Virus record (IMG/VR): IMGVR_UViG_3300017917_003533
Location: 1 to 57,028 of that record
Origin: a virus
DNA length: 57,028 nt
Reading direction: 5' to 3' (one strand)
The notes beneath the pieces are model-generated. The model searched no databases. It saw nothing but the letters and a program-made list of their open reading frames with translations, and was not told where the DNA came from. Made by a program: the position numbers and the translations under genes. Shown one piece after another: positions 39,858 to 49,671 of this stretch. Every line of letters begins with the position of its first letter. Positions within the stretch are counted from its first letter, which is position 1.

Positions 39858-40300
39858 GCGGTTTATTTGGAGAACCAGTAGTTAAATATACAGAAGAAAA
39901 ATACGATACACCTAAAATATCACCTTTCGATTTTATAAATTCTATTCATTATACTAAAGATAATCTAATAGTAGATGATTGGTCTGAGAAACAATATAAT
40001 TCTTTTATTGTAAATAAGGGATTGTCTTATGGGCAGGACACTATTATTCCCGCAAATGAGATGAATTCGAGACCACACCTTGATAAAATACTTCAATATT
40101 CTTTTCTCATAAATATAATTAGGCCTAAAAAAAGATTCAATAAATGGTTGAAGGCTGAGAAGATTGAAGCGCTAGAAGTTATTCGGGAATACTATGGATA
40201 TAGCAAAGAAAAGGCCCGTCAAGTACTTCCGCTTCTTAGTGATGAACAGATTGAAACAATAAAAACAAGAATGTTTAAAGGTGGTAGAAATGGCGGATGA
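39854..40300 (+). CDS. 62: Clamp loader small subunit gp62
   Basis: A 148-residue protein between gp44 and regA, the invariant place of gene 62 in T4-like phages. Seen: SPFDFINSIHYTKDNL, a NSRPHLDKILQYSFLINIIRPKKRFNKWLKA segment resembling T4's 'P.GKRYGKWAK', and a C-terminal helix. T4 gp62 is 187 residues, so this one is shorter. Confidence 0.82.
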   Translation: MSGLFGEPVVKYTEEKYDTPKISPFDFINSIHYTKDNLIVDDWSEKQYNSFIVNKGLSYGQDTIIPANEMNSRPHLDKILQYSFLINIIRPKKRFNKWLKAEKIEALEVIREYYGYSKEKARQVLPLLSDEQIETIKTRMFKGGRNGG

Positions 40301-40718
40301 CTTATTCCATATAGATTTTCCAGGATATTCTCCTTTAGAAGTAGCGCTTACGCATCCTGACGATTTTTTAAAGGTCAGAGAAACATTAACTAGAATCGGT
40401 GTTGCTTCAAGAAAAGACAAGGTACTTTATCAATCGTGTCATATTCTACACAAACAAGGTAGATATTTCATTGTTCATTTTAAAGAATTATTTGCTTTAG
40501 ATGGTAAGCAAGCTGATCTTACAGATAATGATTTACAAAGACGCAATACGATTGCTAAACTACTTGTAGATTGGGGATTAATAAAATTACTTGAACCTAG
40601 TTTATTTAATGACATGGCTCCATTATCTCAGATCAAAGTGATTGCTTTCAAAGATAAGGATGACTGGGATTTACAAACTAAGTATAATATCGGCAAAAAG
40701 AAACAATCTGCGATATAA
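40290..40718 (+). CDS. regA: RegA translational repressor
   Basis: A 142-residue protein. The ATG at 40290 has AAAGG eight bases upstream; a GTG at 40281 in frame is an alternative. The core LTHPDDFLKVRETLTRIGVASRKDKVLYQSCHILHKQGRYFIVHFKELFALDGK is nearly that of T4 RegA, with an N-terminal extension of about 20 residues. RegA binds start regions of early mRNAs and shuts off their translation. A late promoter overlaps its stop codon. Confidence 0.95.
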   Translation: MADDLFHIDFPGYSPLEVALTHPDDFLKVRETLTRIGVASRKDKVLYQSCHILHKQGRYFIVHFKELFALDGKQADLTDNDLQRRNTIAKLLVDWGLIKLLEPSLFNDMAPLSQIKVIAFKDKDDWDLQTKYNIGKKKQSAI

Positions 40719-40721
40719 ATA
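40714..40721 (+). promoter_or_regulatory. Late promoter TATAAATA of hsp20
   Basis: An exact late box overlapping the regA stop codon. Predicted start near 40727, giving a leader of about 107 bases before hsp20. Confidence 0.8.
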
Positions 40722-40726
40722 ATATT

Positions 40727-40833
40727 ATCCCTGGGATGGGAACTAGCATGCCAGCGAAGGCTAGTAAAATATTCACTGGTGCCAACGCCATTTGGGTTGG
40801 ATAACTTTAATCTCGCTTACGAGGAGAACTAAA
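40727..40833 (+). promoter_or_regulatory. Structured 5' leader of hsp20
   Basis: Three small hairpins are visible: ACTAGC (40742-40747) with GCTAGT (40760-40765); CCAAC (40782-40786) with GTTGG (40796-40800); and CTCG (40812-40815) with CGAG (40820-40823) around a CTTA loop. The third hairpin takes up the first bases of the GAGGAG ribosome site, so it could restrain translation. There is no long ORF in the leader. Confidence 0.5.
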
Positions 40834-41334
40834 ATGACACTATTACTTAAAAACGGACCCTTTGATATGTTTAAAGATATGGATAAGTTTCTAGTCGGTT
40901 TCGATGAAACTTATAATCGCATGGCAAAATTCCATGATGATATGACCAAAAATATTCCTAACTATCCTCCATACAATATAAAGAAAGTTGAAGATAACAG
41001 ATATGTTATTGAATTAGCTGTGGCAGGATTTGCTAAATCAGACATTGAAGTTGTTTTTGAGGATAACAAACTTATCATTAGTGGTAAAGCCCAAGAAGAT
41101 AATGATAACTTCTTGTTTAAAGGTATTGCTAATAGAGCATTTACTCGTACATTTTTGCTTGACGATCATATTGAAATTAATGATGCAGCAATGATGAACG
41201 GTATGCTTAAAATTGCTCTTGAAAAAATTATTCCAGAGCACAAGAAACCAAAGAAAATCGAAGTCAAAGATACTGAATCTAAAACTAGTAAGAAACAGTA
41301 TTTGACGGAGAAAAATAATGACATTAATATCTAG
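40834..41334 (+). CDS. hsp20: Small heat-shock protein Hsp20
   Basis: A 166-residue alpha-crystallin-family chaperone. It has MTLLLKNGPFDMFKDMDKFLVGFDETYNRM at the N-terminus, then the crystallin domain PPYNIKKVEDNRYVIELAVAGFAKSDIEVVFEDNKLIISGKA, a RTFLL strand, and the MLKIALEK strand. The ATG at 40834 has a GAGGAG site. Hsp20 genes are common in marine T4-like phages and are thought to help virion assembly. Confidence 0.92.
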   Translation: MTLLLKNGPFDMFKDMDKFLVGFDETYNRMAKFHDDMTKNIPNYPPYNIKKVEDNRYVIELAVAGFAKSDIEVVFEDNKLIISGKAQEDNDNFLFKGIANRAFTRTFLLDDHIEINDAAMMNGMLKIALEKIIPEHKKPKKIEVKDTESKTSKKQYLTEKNNDINI

Positions 41335-43436: not shown

Positions 43437-43516
43437 GGTATCCACATCCATATAGCTTGACTTACTAGCAATGATCCTATAAAGCCTACTACTGTACTAA
43501 TGTAGAACCGCCCCAT
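43424..43516 (-). CDS. 30-residue single-span membrane peptide (overlapping ORF)
   Basis: An ORF in another frame bridging the end of the 43489 gene and the start of the lipoprotein gene. It encodes MGRFYISTVVGFIGSLLVSQ followed by AIWMWIPWLS, a clean transmembrane peptide. No strong ribosome site is visible, so its expression is unproven. Confidence 0.35.
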   Translation of the reverse strand: MGRFYISTVVGFIGSLLVSQAIWMWIPWLS

Positions 43517-43893
43517 GTGTACCAGGGAGATCTAAGTTTAGCCTCATCTCTTTCGGCTTCTAATTTCTTAGCTTTCTCCATGATATCTTTTTTATCATCA
43601 CTCATTCGTTTAGCTTCTGCTAGAAACTTTTCTTTATTTTCTGGTTTGGTGGTTTCTATAGCATTAATCTCATATAATACTCCTCGCACATTTTTAGCCT
43701 GATACCAAGCCCACATATTATTTGCTTGAATAGTATTATTTTGAATCTTGCTAGAATTACTACCACCTAGCATAGTATTGATTGCTAATACTGCTGCTAA
43801 AAAAACAATTATAAATCCTGCTTTATCTTTAATCTTTGCTTCACGTTCGCTTCTGGTTAATGGTTTCGGGTCTTTTGATTGTTGGTCGCTCAT
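43489..43893 (-). CDS. Membrane-anchored coiled-coil protein (DUF4337-like, i-spanin-like topology)
   Basis: A 134-residue protein: a charged N-terminus, one membrane span (AGFIIVFLAAVLAINTML), then NTIQANNMWAWYQAKNVRGVLYE, which recalls DUF4337 proteins, then a coiled coil (KEKFLAEAKRMSDDKKDIMEKAKKLEAERDEAK). An AAGGA ribosome site precedes it. An N-in/C-out span plus periplasmic coiled coil, followed by a lipoprotein gene, is the layout of i-spanin/o-spanin pairs. Spanin function is inference. Confidence 0.6.
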   Translation of the reverse strand: MSDQQSKDPKPLTRSEREAKIKDKAGFIIVFLAAVLAINTMLGGSNSSKIQNNTIQANNMWAWYQAKNVRGVLYEINAIETTKPENKEKFLAEAKRMSDDKKDIMEKAKKLEAERDEAKLRSPWYTWGGSTLVQ

Positions 43894-44218
43894 TTACTAT
43901 ATCCTTAGGTTTATTAACATACTTGTCAAGAATAGCATTACCTACCCAAGCAGCCATATATCCCATAAAATACCATTCACTAAATCTTTCTTCAACTATA
44001 AGATAAACAAAGCCCCAGGTACTAACTATCCATGCTCCAAATCTAACAAATTTTTTCTCATCCAATTTGCCATTACTACAAATTAAATCTTTGAGATCAA
44101 TACTGTTATCACTATTTCTATGCCATACCCAAAGTAATAGAATAAGAAAAAGCACAACTAGCATGAGTAAAGAGCTCATGGCGAACTGTGCTTTATTAAT
44201 ATCTGTCCAATCTATCAT
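43841..44218 (-). CDS. Multi-span membrane protein, holin-like
   Basis: A 125-residue protein: MIDWTDINKAQFAMSSLLMLVVLFLILLLWVWHRNSD forms a first span; KFVRFGAWIVSTWGFVYLIVEERFSEWYFMGYMAAWVGNAIL gives two more; the C-terminus is basic. The SNGKLDEKKFVRFGAWIVSTW..YL..E..SEWYF.GYM..W segment is recurrent in phage membrane proteins near lysis genes. First gene after the minus-strand late promoter. Holin function is a guess from topology, size and place. Confidence 0.6.
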   Translation of the reverse strand: MIDWTDINKAQFAMSSLLMLVVLFLILLLWVWHRNSDNSIDLKDLICSNGKLDEKKFVRFGAWIVSTWGFVYLIVEERFSEWYFMGYMAAWVGNAILDKYVNKPKDIVNERPTIKRPETINQKRT

Positions 44219-44224
44219 TTTTCC

Positions 44225-44232
44225 TATAAATA
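44225..44232 (+). promoter_or_regulatory. Late promoter TATAAATA (+), half of an overlapping divergent pair
   Basis: An exact late box reading right, 35 bases before the 44267 ATG; predicted start near 44238. It faces an identical box on the other strand 10 bases away. Confidence 0.8.
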
Positions 44233-44242
44233 AATTATTAAT

Positions 44243-44250
44243 TATTTATA
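44243..44250 (-). promoter_or_regulatory. Late promoter TATAAATA (-), half of an overlapping divergent pair
   Basis: TATTTATA on the + strand, so an exact late box reading left, 25 bases before the 44218 start; predicted start near 44237. Confidence 0.8.
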
Positions 44251-44266
44251 GATATTGGAATATAAC

Positions 44267-44710
44267 ATGCCTCGACAACCCAGAAAAGAAACAGTACCAT
44301 ATATAGAACCCCCACTATATTATAAGATTATTTCTTGGATTAAAAACAAGCCATTAAATTTTTTTATTATTATTTTAGTTGTTGTCGCATTAATATTATA
44401 TCTGTCAGTTATTCTTAAGACATCAGTTAAAGAACCAGTTTTAGAACCACCTAAACAAGTTATTACCGTTAATCCTACAAATTCAATTGAAATACAATTA
44501 GAAAAACATAGTGTATTGATTCAAAAATTAGAAAATGAAAACAATGTTTTAGAAAATAATCTTAGATCATTGGAAAAAAGGCATCAAGCACACACTGATC
44601 TATTGAAAAGATTATGTGAATATATTATAGTTATTACAGTAGATAAAAAGATAATTCCAAGACAATGCCTGCCCGAATACAAATGGGGTAAAGAAGAATA
44701 TGGAAACTAA
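44267..44710 (+). CDS. Membrane-anchored coiled-coil protein, unknown
   Basis: A 147-residue protein. The ATG at 44267 lies 29 bases after the predicted late start. A basic N-terminus is followed by one membrane span (PLNFFIIILVVVALILYLSVIL), a proline-rich stretch, and a coiled coil (IQLEKHSVLIQKLENENNVLENNLRSLEKRHQ), ending in a domain with two cysteines. It overlaps the cyclase gene by 11 bases, so the two are probably co-expressed. Another i-spanin-like topology is possible. Confidence 0.65.
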   Translation: MPRQPRKETVPYIEPPLYYKIISWIKNKPLNFFIIILVVVALILYLSVILKTSVKEPVLEPPKQVITVNPTNSIEIQLEKHSVLIQKLENENNVLENNLRSLEKRHQAHTDLLKRLCEYIIVITVDKKIIPRQCLPEYKWGKEEYGN

Positions 44711-45929
44711 ACTAGCCACCATAGTTTGTAGCGACGTAATTGGTTACAGCAGCCAAATGCAGCGTGACGAAGTTGATACACTTAAAAAGTTGGACCAATG
44801 CCGTGCTGTGATTGATCCTCTAATAGATCGTAGTCGTGGCAGATTATTCAATACCGGCGGAGATAGTGTCCTAATAGAATTTGCTAGTGCGGTGGATGCT
44901 GTACGATTTGGTATAGAAATGCAAGGCCTTATGCGCGGACTAAACAACGGACTACGCTGGCGTATAGGTATACATGTTGGAGAAGTATGGATATATGGTA
45001 CTAATCTCATGGGCGAAGCAGTTAATCTTGCTGCTCGTACAGAAAGTCTAGCTGACTATGGTGGTGTCACAATGACCGAATCTGTATATAGATTGGTTGC
45101 TGGCAAGATTAAAGATTATAAATTTATTAGCCGTGGACTACAAGAATTCAAAAATGTCGATCCCATGGAAATTTACAGTGTGGTCTTGGAAGGTAGTGAA
45201 CCCAATCCACATCTAAGTAAAGCACCTAAAGTACAGATCGCAGAGTCTACTAAATCACATAAAGATTTAATCGCTGCTGTTAACAACGACCAAGCGGCTC
45301 GCAATAAAAGTTTAAATGATGCAATGACTTTTAAACACGATGGTAAATATGGTCCAGCTATACGTATTATGATGTGGCGTGTTAGCAAACATGATCATCA
45401 AGCTTTAGATGAACTTATCAATATGATGCAAAAAGATTTAATCCCATTAGAATTGAAACCATATGTACTAGCTGTTTTTCGAGAATACTGCACTAAGATT
45501 AACAGTGATCTTGCTTTAAAAATTGCAGATTTAGTTGAAAAAGATAGTAAGAGTTTAGCTATTCAATTTTTAAAACAAGCAGCTAAGGTTAATGAACAGG
45601 CAGGGTATAAACTAGCATTGATGATATTTAGTGATCCAAATAGCAGTACAGGGGAAATTGAAAGTGTAATAGGTGACCTTAAGGAAAGCGCCATGAAACG
45701 CAAAGTACCAGCAATGATGAATTTAGGAAAGTATTATCTACAGATAAAAGATAATAAGAATGCCTTTAGATGGTTATATGCTGCTAGAGCTGAACATAAC
45801 AAAGAAGCACAAAAGTTATTGGAAGAACTAAATAAAACTATTAGTAAAACAGATTTCAATAACTATAAAACGGATGCTGACGCATTAGTAGACCAAATAA
45901 AATTTATAGATGACAATAGAATGCGTTAG
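44700..45929 (+). CDS. Class III nucleotide cyclase with C-terminal repeat domain
   Basis: A 409-residue protein. Residues 1-165 are a class III adenylate/guanylate cyclase domain: KLATIVCSDVIGYSSQM with metal Asp12, GRLFNTGGDSVLIEFASAVDAVRF with metal Asp55, RIGIHVGEVW, and GEAVNLAART with the transition-state Asn109 and Arg113. The base-selecting positions differ from typical adenylate cyclases: Asn51 where Lys is usual and Glu106 where Asp is usual. Residues ~200-390 are helical Sel1/TPR-like repeats (AMMNLGKYYLQIKDNKNAFRWLYAARAEHNKEAQKLLEEL). It resembles alphaproteobacterial soluble cyclases and is rare for a phage. The late promoter at 44225 drives it. Confidence 0.87.
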   Translation: METKLATIVCSDVIGYSSQMQRDEVDTLKKLDQCRAVIDPLIDRSRGRLFNTGGDSVLIEFASAVDAVRFGIEMQGLMRGLNNGLRWRIGIHVGEVWIYGTNLMGEAVNLAARTESLADYGGVTMTESVYRLVAGKIKDYKFISRGLQEFKNVDPMEIYSVVLEGSEPNPHLSKAPKVQIAESTKSHKDLIAAVNNDQAARNKSLNDAMTFKHDGKYGPAIRIMMWRVSKHDHQALDELINMMQKDLIPLELKPYVLAVFREYCTKINSDLALKIADLVEKDSKSLAIQFLKQAAKVNEQAGYKLALMIFSDPNSSTGEIESVIGDLKESAMKRKVPAMMNLGKYYLQIKDNKNAFRWLYAARAEHNKEAQKLLEELNKTISKTDFNNYKTDADALVDQIKFIDDNRMR

Positions 45930-45932
45930 TAA

Positions 45933-46109
45933 TTATTTTTCCTTATTTAGTTTATTTACTGCATCCCATAGAGCAGTGATCTGTTTATCATAATTCTTTT
46001 CTAAATAATCTACTCTCACTTTAAGAGTGACTGCATAAGCAGCTATGGCTACGACTCCGGCTCCTAAGAACCAGAGTTTACCCAACGCATCAGCAATGTT
46101 TTCCATCAT
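45933..46109 (-). CDS. 58-residue single-span membrane protein
   Basis: The ATG at 46109 overlaps the upstream stop. Product: MMENIADALGKLWFLGAGVV.. with one membrane span (LWFLGAGVVAIAAYAVTL) and a short coiled coil (VRVDYLEKNYDKQITALWDAVNKLNKEK). Last gene of the minus-strand secreted-protein operon; it ends four bases from the convergent cyclase gene. XhlA-like topology, function unknown. Confidence 0.65.
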   Translation of the reverse strand: MMENIADALGKLWFLGAGVVAIAAYAVTLKVRVDYLEKNYDKQITALWDAVNKLNKEK

Positions 46110-46759
46110 CTATTCGCCAATGGATTATCTAAGGCCTTCTTCAGATTATCTTCCATCTTTCTTTCTAATGATTTCATCTTTTGCTCCATTTCTCTATCTT
46201 GAGCTCTTAGTTGTTGCTCAGTATTTTTAATAGCTGCTGCAACATCTTTATTTAATTGATTAGCTGCAACATCAACTTGTTTCTGAGCTGCTCTTATTTC
46301 TGCTTTAGCTTCATTTATTGCCTTATCAATTTCTCTTGCCTGTGCTTTATTGGCACGGTTTACTTCTTCAACAACTTTTTCTAACCTACGAAGATCCCCT
46401 TTAATATCATTCTTGATATCTCTGGTATATTCAGCGGTCTTATTAGCGCCATCTTCTATACTTTTTTGTGCCTTAACTGTACCTTCTTCTTGAACTGATA
46501 ATCGTTTGTCAAATTCAGAAAGATCAGGTGTAACGTACTCAGCGATCTTTTTCTTCATTCCAACATAATCTTTGTACACTTCAAAGGCACCATATAGGCC
46601 ACCCAATATACTTGATACTAAGGTAAATGCTATCATTAGTTTAGCTGGGGTAAATTCATACCCACCAATACTAATTACAGTATCTGCACTAGCATATTTT
46701 TTTACTGCTGCTTGAGCCTCGTCTATCTTCTTATTAACATCTTTGATTTCTTCGGTCAT
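46106..46759 (-). CDS. Membrane protein with long coiled coil
   Basis: A 217-residue protein behind GAGG. Residues ~35-65 hold a membrane span (AKLMIAFTLVSSILGGLYGAF); the remaining 150 residues are a nearly unbroken, charged coiled coil (DIKGDLRRLEKVVEEVNRANKAQAREIDKAINEAKAEIRAA). Co-transcribed with two signal-peptide proteins. A scaffolding or envelope-spanning role is a guess. Confidence 0.7.
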   Translation of the reverse strand: MTEEIKDVNKKIDEAQAAVKKYASADTVISIGGYEFTPAKLMIAFTLVSSILGGLYGAFEVYKDYVGMKKKIAEYVTPDLSEFDKRLSVQEEGTVKAQKSIEDGANKTAEYTRDIKNDIKGDLRRLEKVVEEVNRANKAQAREIDKAINEAKAEIRAAQKQVDVAANQLNKDVAAAIKNTEQQLRAQDREMEQKMKSLERKMEDNLKKALDNPLANR

Positions 46760-46761
46760 TT

Positions 46762-48423
46762 CTACCTCGGTAAGTATTGTTGTTCCACCATTTGCTGATG
46801 GAGCCTATCACTTGCCAACGATCTTAATGCTCTAACATTATCAATAGTCTTTTGATTGCGATAAATTTCTTTTGGTGCATAAAATGCTACATCTTTCAAT
46901 GATACATTATACACTTCATATCCTGCAGGTAGTCTAGCTAATTGTGTTATACTAACTCCGCCGGCCGCATCATTATCCTGTGCTTTTTGATTTACTGCAG
47001 GACCACTAAATGTTGATATACTAGCTATCTGTGGCTGTGCTGTAACGATGTCATTAATAGGATTCGTTTTATCCGTCAGCATATTGACCGGCAGCGCAGT
47101 ACTAATTTCTTGTACTTGTATTTCTGGTTTTACTATCGCTATCTGTTCTATGTTTTGAGTATTTTCTAAACTAATATTTTGTTGTTGTAGTTGGGATGGT
47201 GGTCTATATAAGTTACTTTGTTGCAATGATGCTAAGTTATCCTCTATCTTAGTTGGTTCTATTTGTTGAATAACTGCAGGAACTTGTAATAATACACTAT
47301 TGTTTTCTGTTGTTGTATTTGGTGTTGCAATAATATTTGTAGTTTGTAAGTTTGTAGATACAGTTGCCTGTTCCTGGGCTTGCCTAGTGCCAGGTACAAC
47401 AGTTTGATCTATTTGTTGATTATCTACAGCTACGCTTACTTCTGCTTGAGTTTGGATTGCGGTTCGTGTTTGCATTCTAGTTTGTTGTGTGGACCTAGTT
47501 TGTTCTGTCATTGTTACAGTGGCCACTTGACTAGTAGTCTTTGATTCCGTACTAGCAGTTTCAGTAGCCTGTTCTGGTCCAGCCTGTACTAACTTAAGTT
47601 CATCACGCTGTCTGATTCTTGCCACAGTTTGAGCAGTAGTTTCTATTTTTTTAACTTCGCTGTTAGTAGTTAAGGTGATACTTGTAGCAATTGACTCAAC
47701 TGCTGGTTCTGCCTGTTTTGGCACAGCTGCAACATTTTGTATAGCATCTAAAAATCCTGGACATTGTGGGCTGACCAGTTGACTGCGAAGGCAAGGATCA
47801 GGTTGATAGTTTAGAGTAAAACTAACATTATTAATTTCTGGACCATATGGACCCACCCAATAATTATTATCTCGGCCTATAAAACCAAATCCAACTCTTG
47901 TAAGATTTTCTGTAGTATATCTTGAGGTTAGTGGACTATAACTATTGGCCAAATTAAAAGTATACCAATCGTGTGTGCCAGTATGAACAAAGTTAGCCTG
48001 CTCTATAAGGGTATTACCCTTGCCAACGATATTAACATAACTTCTTAAGTAATCATATGCACCATCATCCCAACCATTACCCACTTTGGCAGTATATTGG
48101 AGATGCCAACCAGTAACCACCAAGCCTGTTCCACTATAAGGTAATACATTTTTAACGTTATGGTACTGGTATATATCTGTCATATTATAACTAAAATTTA
48201 TATTACCATCTGGTCTCAAGTATGGGGTTCCAGGACTACAACTAGGATCACCTGCTTGCCAGCAGGTTAGACTATTTACAGAATACACATTAGCCCAACT
48301 GCCATTATTCAAGTTTCCCGTGGTGCTAGTTTGACCATAAGCCACAGATAAAAGGCCTAGTATCAATATTAATATAAAAAGAATAAAGCCTTTAGTGTGT
48401 TTATAACCATAATTTTTATCCAT
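46762..48423 (-). CDS. Secreted or surface protein with Gln/Thr-rich central region
   Basis: A 553-residue protein. It starts with a basic N-terminus and hydrophobic signal (GFILFILILILGLLSVAYGQT; cleavage likely after YG or AYG). Residues ~28-235 look like a beta-rich lectin-like domain with paired cysteines (LTCWQAGDPSC, DPCLRSQLVSPQC) and many Trp/Tyr. Residues ~240-440 are low complexity, rich in Gln, Thr, Val and Ala. The end is a short conserved domain (LARLPAGYEVYNVSLKDVAFYAPKEIYRNQKTIDNVRALRSL). A Sec signal is unusual in a phage protein. No family recognised. Confidence 0.7.
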   Translation of the reverse strand: MDKNYGYKHTKGFILFILILILGLLSVAYGQTSTTGNLNNGSWANVYSVNSLTCWQAGDPSCSPGTPYLRPDGNINFSYNMTDIYQYHNVKNVLPYSGTGLVVTGWHLQYTAKVGNGWDDGAYDYLRSYVNIVGKGNTLIEQANFVHTGTHDWYTFNLANSYSPLTSRYTTENLTRVGFGFIGRDNNYWVGPYGPEINNVSFTLNYQPDPCLRSQLVSPQCPGFLDAIQNVAAVPKQAEPAVESIATSITLTTNSEVKKIETTAQTVARIRQRDELKLVQAGPEQATETASTESKTTSQVATVTMTEQTRSTQQTRMQTRTAIQTQAEVSVAVDNQQIDQTVVPGTRQAQEQATVSTNLQTTNIIATPNTTTENNSVLLQVPAVIQQIEPTKIEDNLASLQQSNLYRPPSQLQQQNISLENTQNIEQIAIVKPEIQVQEISTALPVNMLTDKTNPINDIVTAQPQIASISTFSGPAVNQKAQDNDAAGGVSITQLARLPAGYEVYNVSLKDVAFYAPKEIYRNQKTIDNVRALRSLASDRLHQQMVEQQYLPR

Positions 48424-48426
48424 GCA

Positions 48427-49671
48427 TTAACCGTCCTTTAATAGTTTAGGCATTTTATCTGGATTCTTTAACCAAGCTTCCTTTGCTTGCTCACCAATCA
48501 TTCCTTCATATGGGCAAGGTGTTCCAGCCATCATCATTGCATCAAATATACGACGATCTTGGCACATTGTTGCAACTGCTGCTACTTTCATTCCCATATC
48601 AAAAAGAGTTTTACTTAATCTTAATCTTTCACAATTCATATCTCTCACTGTAGAACCGAAACTCATACCTAATACTTGTGTTTGAGCAGCGCCACTAATA
48701 CCCGTGACACATAAATCTTGTCCCATACTCATCATTGCTGGAGCTATTGCGGTAGGGGGAGGCTGTATGACCTTTTGTGTAATTTCACTCTTGTTTATAT
48801 TAGTATTGACATTGTCTGTCTTTACTGTTTGATCGCTACTACTGACACTTTGATTTATATTGGTATTAGTATTGTTTGATGTTGCAGCACTGGTGCTAGA
48901 ATTAATATTACGGTTTGTCATATCACCAGTTTGTATATTATTGTTTGTACTAACACTATTACTTTGATTGAAGTTAGTACTAGTGTTGTTACTGTTATTG
49001 GTATTTACATTATTACTAGCACTAATACTTGTAGAATTTATAGTGTTTGTATTTATACTACGATTTGTCATATCGCCGTATTGATAATTAGTATTATTGC
49101 TGGTACTTGTATTAGTATTTACATTATTACTAGTTGTGGTGTTTACATTATTGTTGTTATAGGTAACACTACCGCTCATTATATTACGATTAGTATTGTC
49201 GCTAGTACTAGTATTTTGATTAATATTTGTTAGTGTACCGCTTTGGACATTGTTATTGTTATAAGTTACAGTACCACTGTTTACATTATTGTTGTTATTG
49301 GTGTAGGTTACACTACCGCTTTGAATATTATTATTGGTATTTGTATTGTTGCTAGTATTATTACTAGTAGTTTGATTGATATTAGTGGCTGTTCCGCTCT
49401 GCACATTATTATTGGTGTAGGTCACACTACCACTCATCACGTTGTTATTGGTCACCGTTCCACTCTGTATATTGTTATTAGTATTGGTACTGGTGGTTGT
49501 GTTTGTATTAGTGCTAGTGGTAGTTGAATTCACCGTGTTGGTGCTATTGCTTGTACTATTAGTATCAACCAAACTAGAACTGGTATATCCACCTTGATTG
49601 ATCAATGTCTGCGCAAATACATTTAATGATAAACAAATACTTAACAGTATCCACAATACTGCTTTTAGCAT
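48427..49671 (-). CDS. Secreted Asn/Thr/Ser-repeat protein
   Basis: A 414-residue protein with an AGGAG site. It starts with a Sec signal peptide (KAVLWILLSICLSLNVFA, cut likely after VFA). Residues ~35-300 are almost only Asn, Thr and Ser with about ten copies of a short 'NNNVQSGTVT' or 'GDMTNRNI' unit, suggesting a beta-solenoid or fibre. The C-terminal ~110 residues form a compact, Cys/Met-rich domain (GQDLCVTGISGAAQTQVLGMSFGS, MCQDRRIFDAMMMAGTPCPYEG). The late promoter at 49797-49804 drives it. It might be exported to the host surface or form a virion fibre. Confidence 0.75.
   Translation of the reverse strand: MLKAVLWILLSICLSLNVFAQTLINQGGYTSSSLVDTNSTSNSTNTVNSTTTSTNTNTTTSTNTNNNIQSGTVTNNNVMSGSVTYTNNNVQSGTATNINQTTSNNTSNNTNTNNNIQSGSVTYTNNNNNVNSGTVTYNNNNVQSGTLTNINQNTSTSDNTNRNIMSGSVTYNNNNVNTTTSNNVNTNTSTSNNTNYQYGDMTNRSINTNTINSTSISASNNVNTNNSNNTSTNFNQSNSVSTNNNIQTGDMTNRNINSSTSAATSNNTNTNINQSVSSSDQTVKTDNVNTNINKSEITQKVIQPPPTAIAPAMMSMGQDLCVTGISGAAQTQVLGMSFGSTVRDMNCERLRLSKTLFDMGMKVAAVATMCQDRRIFDAMMMAGTPCPYEGMIGEQAKEAWLKNPDKMPKLLKDG
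48780..49530 (-). repeat. Degenerate tandem repeats encoding the Asn/Thr/Ser region
   Basis: Minus-strand AAT/ACT-rich triplet-biased repeats; the unit coding for 'N-V-x-SG-T-V-T' recurs about ten times at irregular spacing. The triplet bias keeps other frames open and creates false ORFs on the + strand. Confidence 0.75.

Follow-up and report, generated by a model that had tools for sequence, protein, structure and literature searches.

Why would a tailed phage carry a nucleotide cyclase, and what could such an enzyme do during infection? Proteins with which phages degrade or sequester cyclic nucleotides have received much study; the making of cyclic nucleotides by phages has, to our knowledge, received hardly any. 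The locus examined here lies in a 57,028-nt stretch of DNA from an uncultured T4-like phage (IMG/VR record IMGVR_UViG_3300017917_003533, positions 1-57,028; hereafter the window), in which a reading of the letters alone (the original prediction) had placed a class III nucleotide cyclase with a repeat domain on an inserted segment. Features of the locus are collected in Table 1.

Table 1. Features of the cyclase locus, with positions in the window.
Feature	Position	Strand	Remarks
c4, DUF4337 protein	43489..43893	-	Left border of the insertion site; Pfam, locus comparison
c37, membrane protein (phrog_1322)	43841..44218	-	Within the 2.2-kb insert; PHROG match
TATAAATA, T4-type late-promoter-like motif	44225..44232	+	30 nt before c30; motif scan
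TATAAATA, divergent copy	44243..44250	-	32 nt before c37; motif scan
c30, transmembrane and coiled-coil protein	44255..44710	+	Same operon as the cyclase; TTG start as called, ATG at 44267
Class III nucleotide cyclase, 409 aa	44700..45929	+	ATG start; catalytic domain 1-161, linker about 162-186, alpha-solenoid 187-407; ORF call, Pfam, PDB phmmer, alignment, AlphaFold, Foldseek
c11, 57 aa	45933..46106	-	N-terminal helix hydrophobic, C-terminal helix charged; convergent with the cyclase, directly downstream
c3, transmembrane/coiled-coil protein	46106..46759	-	Right border of the insertion site; locus comparison

The phage gene encodes a conserved two-domain class III cyclase

The Pfam family Guanylate_cyc (PF00211) matched residues 6-160 of the protein (E 2e-9; 37.8 bits against a cut-off of 21.9), and a phmmer search of the PDB retrieved 3mr7 (E 3e-22) and Rv1900c of M. 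tuberculosis (1ybt, E 9e-12). Foldseek matches of the AlphaFold model were class III cyclases, the top solved structure being the Rv1900c domain with substrate analogue (TM-score 0.91 on the target). The predicted class is thereby borne out, as is the repeat domain: residues 187-407 were modelled as an all-alpha solenoid (mean pLDDT 87), and Sel1-repeat viral proteins gave weak matches to the second half of the protein. The pTM of the model is low (0.48), so the relative placement of the two domains is uncertain. The enzyme family is ordinary; what is unusual is where it occurs.

A first scan retrieved 13 homologues, and an alignment-based scan of IMG/VR extended the family to 51 contigs with full or partial homologues at 66-82% identity, many more than chance would produce; some of these contigs are near-duplicates, so that counts of loci are not independent. 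The two metal-binding aspartates (D12 and D55) and the transition-state pair (N109 and R113), all noted originally, were invariant across about 50 phage homologues (50-52 sequences aligned). Substitution of catalytic residues in close relatives, which would have counted against the prediction, was looked for across the family and none was found. In close pairs, dN/dS was mostly 0.03-0.1 in both domains, with a value of 0.46 in one pair having very few synonymous differences, and the catalytic core was as constrained as the solenoid, or more so. Residue conservation and low dN/dS together indicate strong purifying selection on both domains, which are kept as parts of one functional protein, and catalytic activity is likely.

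Base-selecting residues and the predicted product

Asn51 and Glu106 occupy the base-selecting positions, as had been read. N51 is invariant in the family; of 52 sequences, 40 have Asp at position 106 and the other 12, including the window protein, have Glu. The canonical Lys/Asp adenine-selecting pair of the adenylyl cyclase subtype is thus absent from the window cyclase, which lowers certainty about the substrate but not about fold or catalysis. The Asn/Glu pair had been taken as a pointer to an unusual base, a pyrimidine cyclic nucleotide among the options; neither idea gained support. One earlier search for cellular relatives was biased, since one search pattern contained Asn51, but a later profile search independent of that residue returned close cellular relatives that likewise carry Asn together with Asp or Glu, and the notion that the pair marks a new product was rejected. 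Rv1900c, too, has Asn aligned at the Lys position, and it is an active adenylyl cyclase (PMC4174876; also PDB titles), so that N51 lends no support to an unusual base. In the pyrimidine cyclase EaPycC, the hallmark is an aromatic residue, F100, which contacts the base and lies two residues before the first metal aspartate, D102 (PMC11224242). The specificity positions of EaPycC map to Cys10, Asn51 and Gly53 in the window cyclase, and Cys10 is invariant (50/50); with a cysteine at the hallmark position, the pyrimidine proposal lost its main family support. No positive support emerged for a pyrimidine product or for a decoy role.

Base-selecting residues predict the product of this enzyme only weakly. 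By analogy with the closest characterised fold relative, our first guess is that cAMP would be the most likely product, and cGMP a possible one. That relative, Rv1900c (LipJ; 1ybt/1ybu), is the best fold match and shares the Asn at the Lys position, but it differs in its alpha/beta hydrolase fusion, in having His at the position of the transition-state Asn and in lacking a solenoid. The window protein scored 62 bits against the LipJ family (NCBIfam NF058673; cut-off 800), over the cyclase region only.

The phage cyclases group with Burkholderiaceae proteins

In a tree of 90 catalytic domains, the phage cyclases formed one clade (100/99). It was joined by three full-length proteins of Burkholderiaceae (100/98), and the alphaproteobacterial cluster lay elsewhere; the sister group is therefore Burkholderiaceae rather than the alphaproteobacterial cyclases against which a phylogeny had been proposed. 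These three proteins (L064, L123 and L124) resemble the window cyclase in having the two domains end to end, at 35-37% identity, with Asn and Asp/Glu at the base-selecting positions. Unlike it, they are chromosomal, lie in cyclic-nucleotide or flagellar neighbourhoods and had no c11 observed beside them: one adjoins a cNMP-binding gene, with flagellar genes also nearby, and that of L124 has a GAF-PAS cyclase as a second cyclase next to it, together with a PDEase_I-like gene. Full-length homologues occurred in 3 of 61 genomes of one Burkholderiaceae genus and in 1 of 300 genomes across the family. The best explanation of these comparisons is that the phage family and the chromosomal two-domain cyclase of Burkholderiaceae would share a recent common ancestor. 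Cyclases from contigs labelled Bacteroidota (L071, L086 and L088) fell inside the alphaproteobacterial cluster, and these contigs are likely mis-binned.

In one related phage, a PstS-like gene shares 75% identity with a Burkholderiales PstS (in a search within Burkholderiales), a hint that the hosts may be related to the source of the cyclase. PstS-like genes are carried by L020 and L045. A HemF-like (coproporphyrinogen oxidase) gene lies two or three genes from the cyclase in L016, L018, L019, L021, L043 and L049.

The cyclase gene is inserted at a defined junction

Identity to the window cyclase stays within the family range irrespective of backbone distance: L015 shares 95% identity in DNA polymerase and 79% in the cyclase, and L021 shares 26% in DnaB and 77% in the cyclase. 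A six-gene cassette (c5, c6, c3, c4, c2, c1) surrounds the gene and often occurs without it: of 47 c4 loci whose flanks are long, 14 have the cyclase. Relatives whose DNA polymerase is 94-97% identical have the flanking cassette with an empty c3-c4 junction, and L140 likewise has an empty site. The claim that the gene is an insertion is thus confirmed, and the idea that the cyclase belongs to the phage core was rejected. In the window, the insert measures 2.2 kb (c37, c30, cyclase and c11); in L044, L057 and L063 it comprises the cyclase and c11 alone (1.45-1.49 kb). From these comparisons, the view that the cyclase is mobile cargo among unrelated tailed phages is well supported. The description of the gene as flanked by minus-strand genes proved right for the outer genes and for c11 downstream, but the immediate upstream gene, c30, is on the plus strand.

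The c3-c4 junction (43894-46105 in the window, and its equivalents) is an insertion site for other cargo as well. L148 and L151 carry a gene there that reads like a lipase, judging from a GHSLG motif, along with a 165-aa membrane protein; L015, L017 and L042 carry a nuclease-like 141-aa protein; and proteins of 211 and 168 aa, with no function assigned, also occur. Upstream of the inserted block, the window has RegA-like and Hsp20-like genes (40281-41334) and then a tRNA-Met (42431), and T4-like relatives show synteny over the Hsp20 and RegA region. On the other side, at 46762-49671, are two secreted Asn/Thr/Gln-rich proteins, c6 and c5. The C-terminal domain of c5 is conserved in the cultured pelagiphages HTVC115P, HTVC023P, HTVC202P and Mosig, and in HTVC023P its gene lies four genes from a peptidase M15.

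c30 overlaps the start of the cyclase by 11 nt, and the 36-nt gap at 44219-44254 contains both divergent copies of TATAAATA. This motif stood 30-45 nt before the operon start in all seven of the nearest loci, which are related to one another, against 38 of 957 gene starts overall; across the whole window it was not enriched (13 found, 14.5 expected). By analogy with T4 biology, a T4-type late promoter probably drives transcription of the c30-cyclase operon late in infection.

A frequent neighbour of the cyclase, c11, is associated with lysis cassettes

c11 was too short for the first ORF list of the window, and it gave no significant Pfam or PHROG match. It lies within 1 kb of the cyclase in 37 of 47 complete loci, in either orientation; nine of the other ten have c7, a different membrane/coiled-coil protein, and the single exception is a short contig. 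A first count (56/75 against 0/136 loci) had pointed to an obligate cyclase-c11 pair. We dropped this idea after a reciprocal scan in which 46 of 80 c11 loci were cyclase-free, so that the link is one-sided. The 46 cyclase-free loci contained a holin-like gene in 45 cases, a label that rests on PHROG 3427 at E 4e-4, and a GH24 endolysin (T4-type lysozyme) in 43, a strong label; the three misses end within 0.5 kb. These neighbours make c11 a lysis-cassette gene by association.

In one group of cyclase loci (group iii: L006, L022, L028, L031-L034, L037 and L055), the cyclase sits exactly between the holin-like and lysozyme genes, with a 4-nt overlap. L347 and L372 have holin-like and lysozyme genes 94% and 81% identical to these, joined directly and without a cyclase. 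Neither a holin nor an endolysin gene adjoins the cyclase in the window; a 400-kb relative has its GH19 endolysin 207 kb from the cyclase, and in two other relatives the distance is 17-22 kb. Such distances led us to reject a universal lysis adjacency, and the lysis neighbourhood of the cyclase is lineage-specific. From its recurrence beside the gene, c11 is a well-supported candidate for the membrane partner of the cyclase.

A second membrane protein family accompanies two cyclase architectures

An independent scan for c7 recovered 57 loci, with a CHASE2-class III cyclase nearby in 35 and a cyclase of the soluble solenoid type in 11; the remainder were mostly truncated or ran into a curli operon. 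Three of the 11 soluble-type loci encode divergent (44-45%) full-length members of the window cyclase family, and at L433:1509-3660 a soluble cyclase (45% identical) stands side by side with a CHASE2-type cyclase. The association of one family of small membrane proteins with cyclases of two architectures speaks for a genuine functional tie. The proteins c7a and c7b are paralogues; c11 and c7 showed no similarity in a profile comparison, and a single family uniting them was rejected. The c7b/c7a genes adjoin CHASE2-class III cyclases in many large phages (L384-L433; L129:6900-7462).

In the cultured phage HTVC008M, the c7 pair gp011/gp012 heads the curli operon and a CHASE2 cyclase stands at its end. 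The pelagiphage study (PMC9599517), the one relevant paper that our searches on phage cyclases returned, described "a histidine kinase, sometimes two" at the c7 position of this operon. We infer that these "histidine kinases" are probably c7 proteins, whose length is too small for a kinase. Like the window gene, HTVC008M gp019 and the pelagiphage adenylate cyclases of that study are phage-encoded class III cyclases, and c7 in the cyclase region is common to HTVC008M and the group iv relatives of the window family. Unlike the window protein, gp019 has CHASE2 and transmembrane regions, a canonical Lys/Asp pair and a place in a curli (CsgF/CsgG/FecR) operon, and the two match at only 25 bits and are of separate origin. 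Pfam found no CHASE2 in the window cyclase, and no Csg matches occurred in the window or in the family loci; a curli link for the window cyclase was therefore rejected.

Proposed role and alternative explanations

The reading that we favour is that of a competent class III cyclase, making cAMP most likely and possibly cGMP, that moves as small cargo among unrelated tailed phages, mostly together with c11, and inserts into blocks of late genes for membrane or lysis proteins. In the window, it would probably be transcribed late, together with c30, and through its solenoid it would probably dock on a small coiled-coil protein of the membrane, c11 here and c7 elsewhere. Cyclic nucleotide made at the envelope would then help to determine the condition of the cell as it dies, for example the timing of lysis; control of lysis or of the envelope is our best-supported guess at its role. 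For this reading as a whole we put the probability at roughly 0.45. The wider proposition, that phages control their own lysis or envelope programme by a cyclic-mononucleotide messenger through a mobile cyclase and c11/c7 module assembled at least twice (soluble-solenoid and CHASE2), strikes us as distinctly unlikely at present.

Instead of acting at the envelope, cAMP or cGMP might diffuse and act on a CRP-type or other cNMP-binding protein of the host, reprogramming metabolism or motility, with the proximity to lysis and membrane genes reflecting nothing more than late-gene insertion hotspots. The cNMP_binding and flagellar genes beside a cellular homologue fit this explanation, as do the PstS hint at hosts related to the source of the cyclase and the other cargo of the c3-c4 junction, such as the lipase-like gene. 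The 22 phage records scanned, all possibly fragments, contained no PF00027 (cNMP-binding) protein, which counts against the favoured reading; here, a receptor would be the host's. Diffusion leaves unexplained, however, why c11 or c7 is kept beside the cyclase across lineages and orientations and why the solenoid is conserved, and we hold host reprogramming to be possible but somewhat unlikely.

The same mobile unit of a cyclase and a membrane protein, present in 14 of the 47 comparable loci, could also be defence or counter-defence cargo, either a Pycsar-like exclusion pair of cyclase and membrane effector or a source of decoy nucleotide that would weaken a signalling defence of the host. PycC (PMC11224242) has a class III-like fold and is encoded next to a membrane protein, and PADLOC returned a weak PycC match (E 0.003 and 1e-4). 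Yet the window cyclase lacks the aromatic residue at the metal Asp minus 2 position, the 22 phage records yielded no CNBD effector, and c11 is a member of lysis cassettes where no cyclase is present. On the first two counts we rejected Pycsar membership, and a defence role in general appears improbable. An inactive scaffold would accommodate the noncanonical base pair, and structural proteins can conserve a fold; such a pseudo-cyclase is nonetheless hard to reconcile with metal and transition-state residues that are all invariant in 50-52 sequences and with a catalytic core constrained at least as much as the solenoid, and we regard it as very improbable.

What is new here is the presence of a cyclase within 1 kb of c11, a protein of lysis cassettes in cyclase-free phages. 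This neighbourhood suggests that a second messenger may be at work late in the infection cycle of these phages. For the cyclases of abundant aquatic phages, so far little explained, it offers a partner other than curli, and, since the family spans several phage lineages and comes with a defined small membrane partner, the idea of a phage-made second messenger becomes directly testable with two or three small genes.
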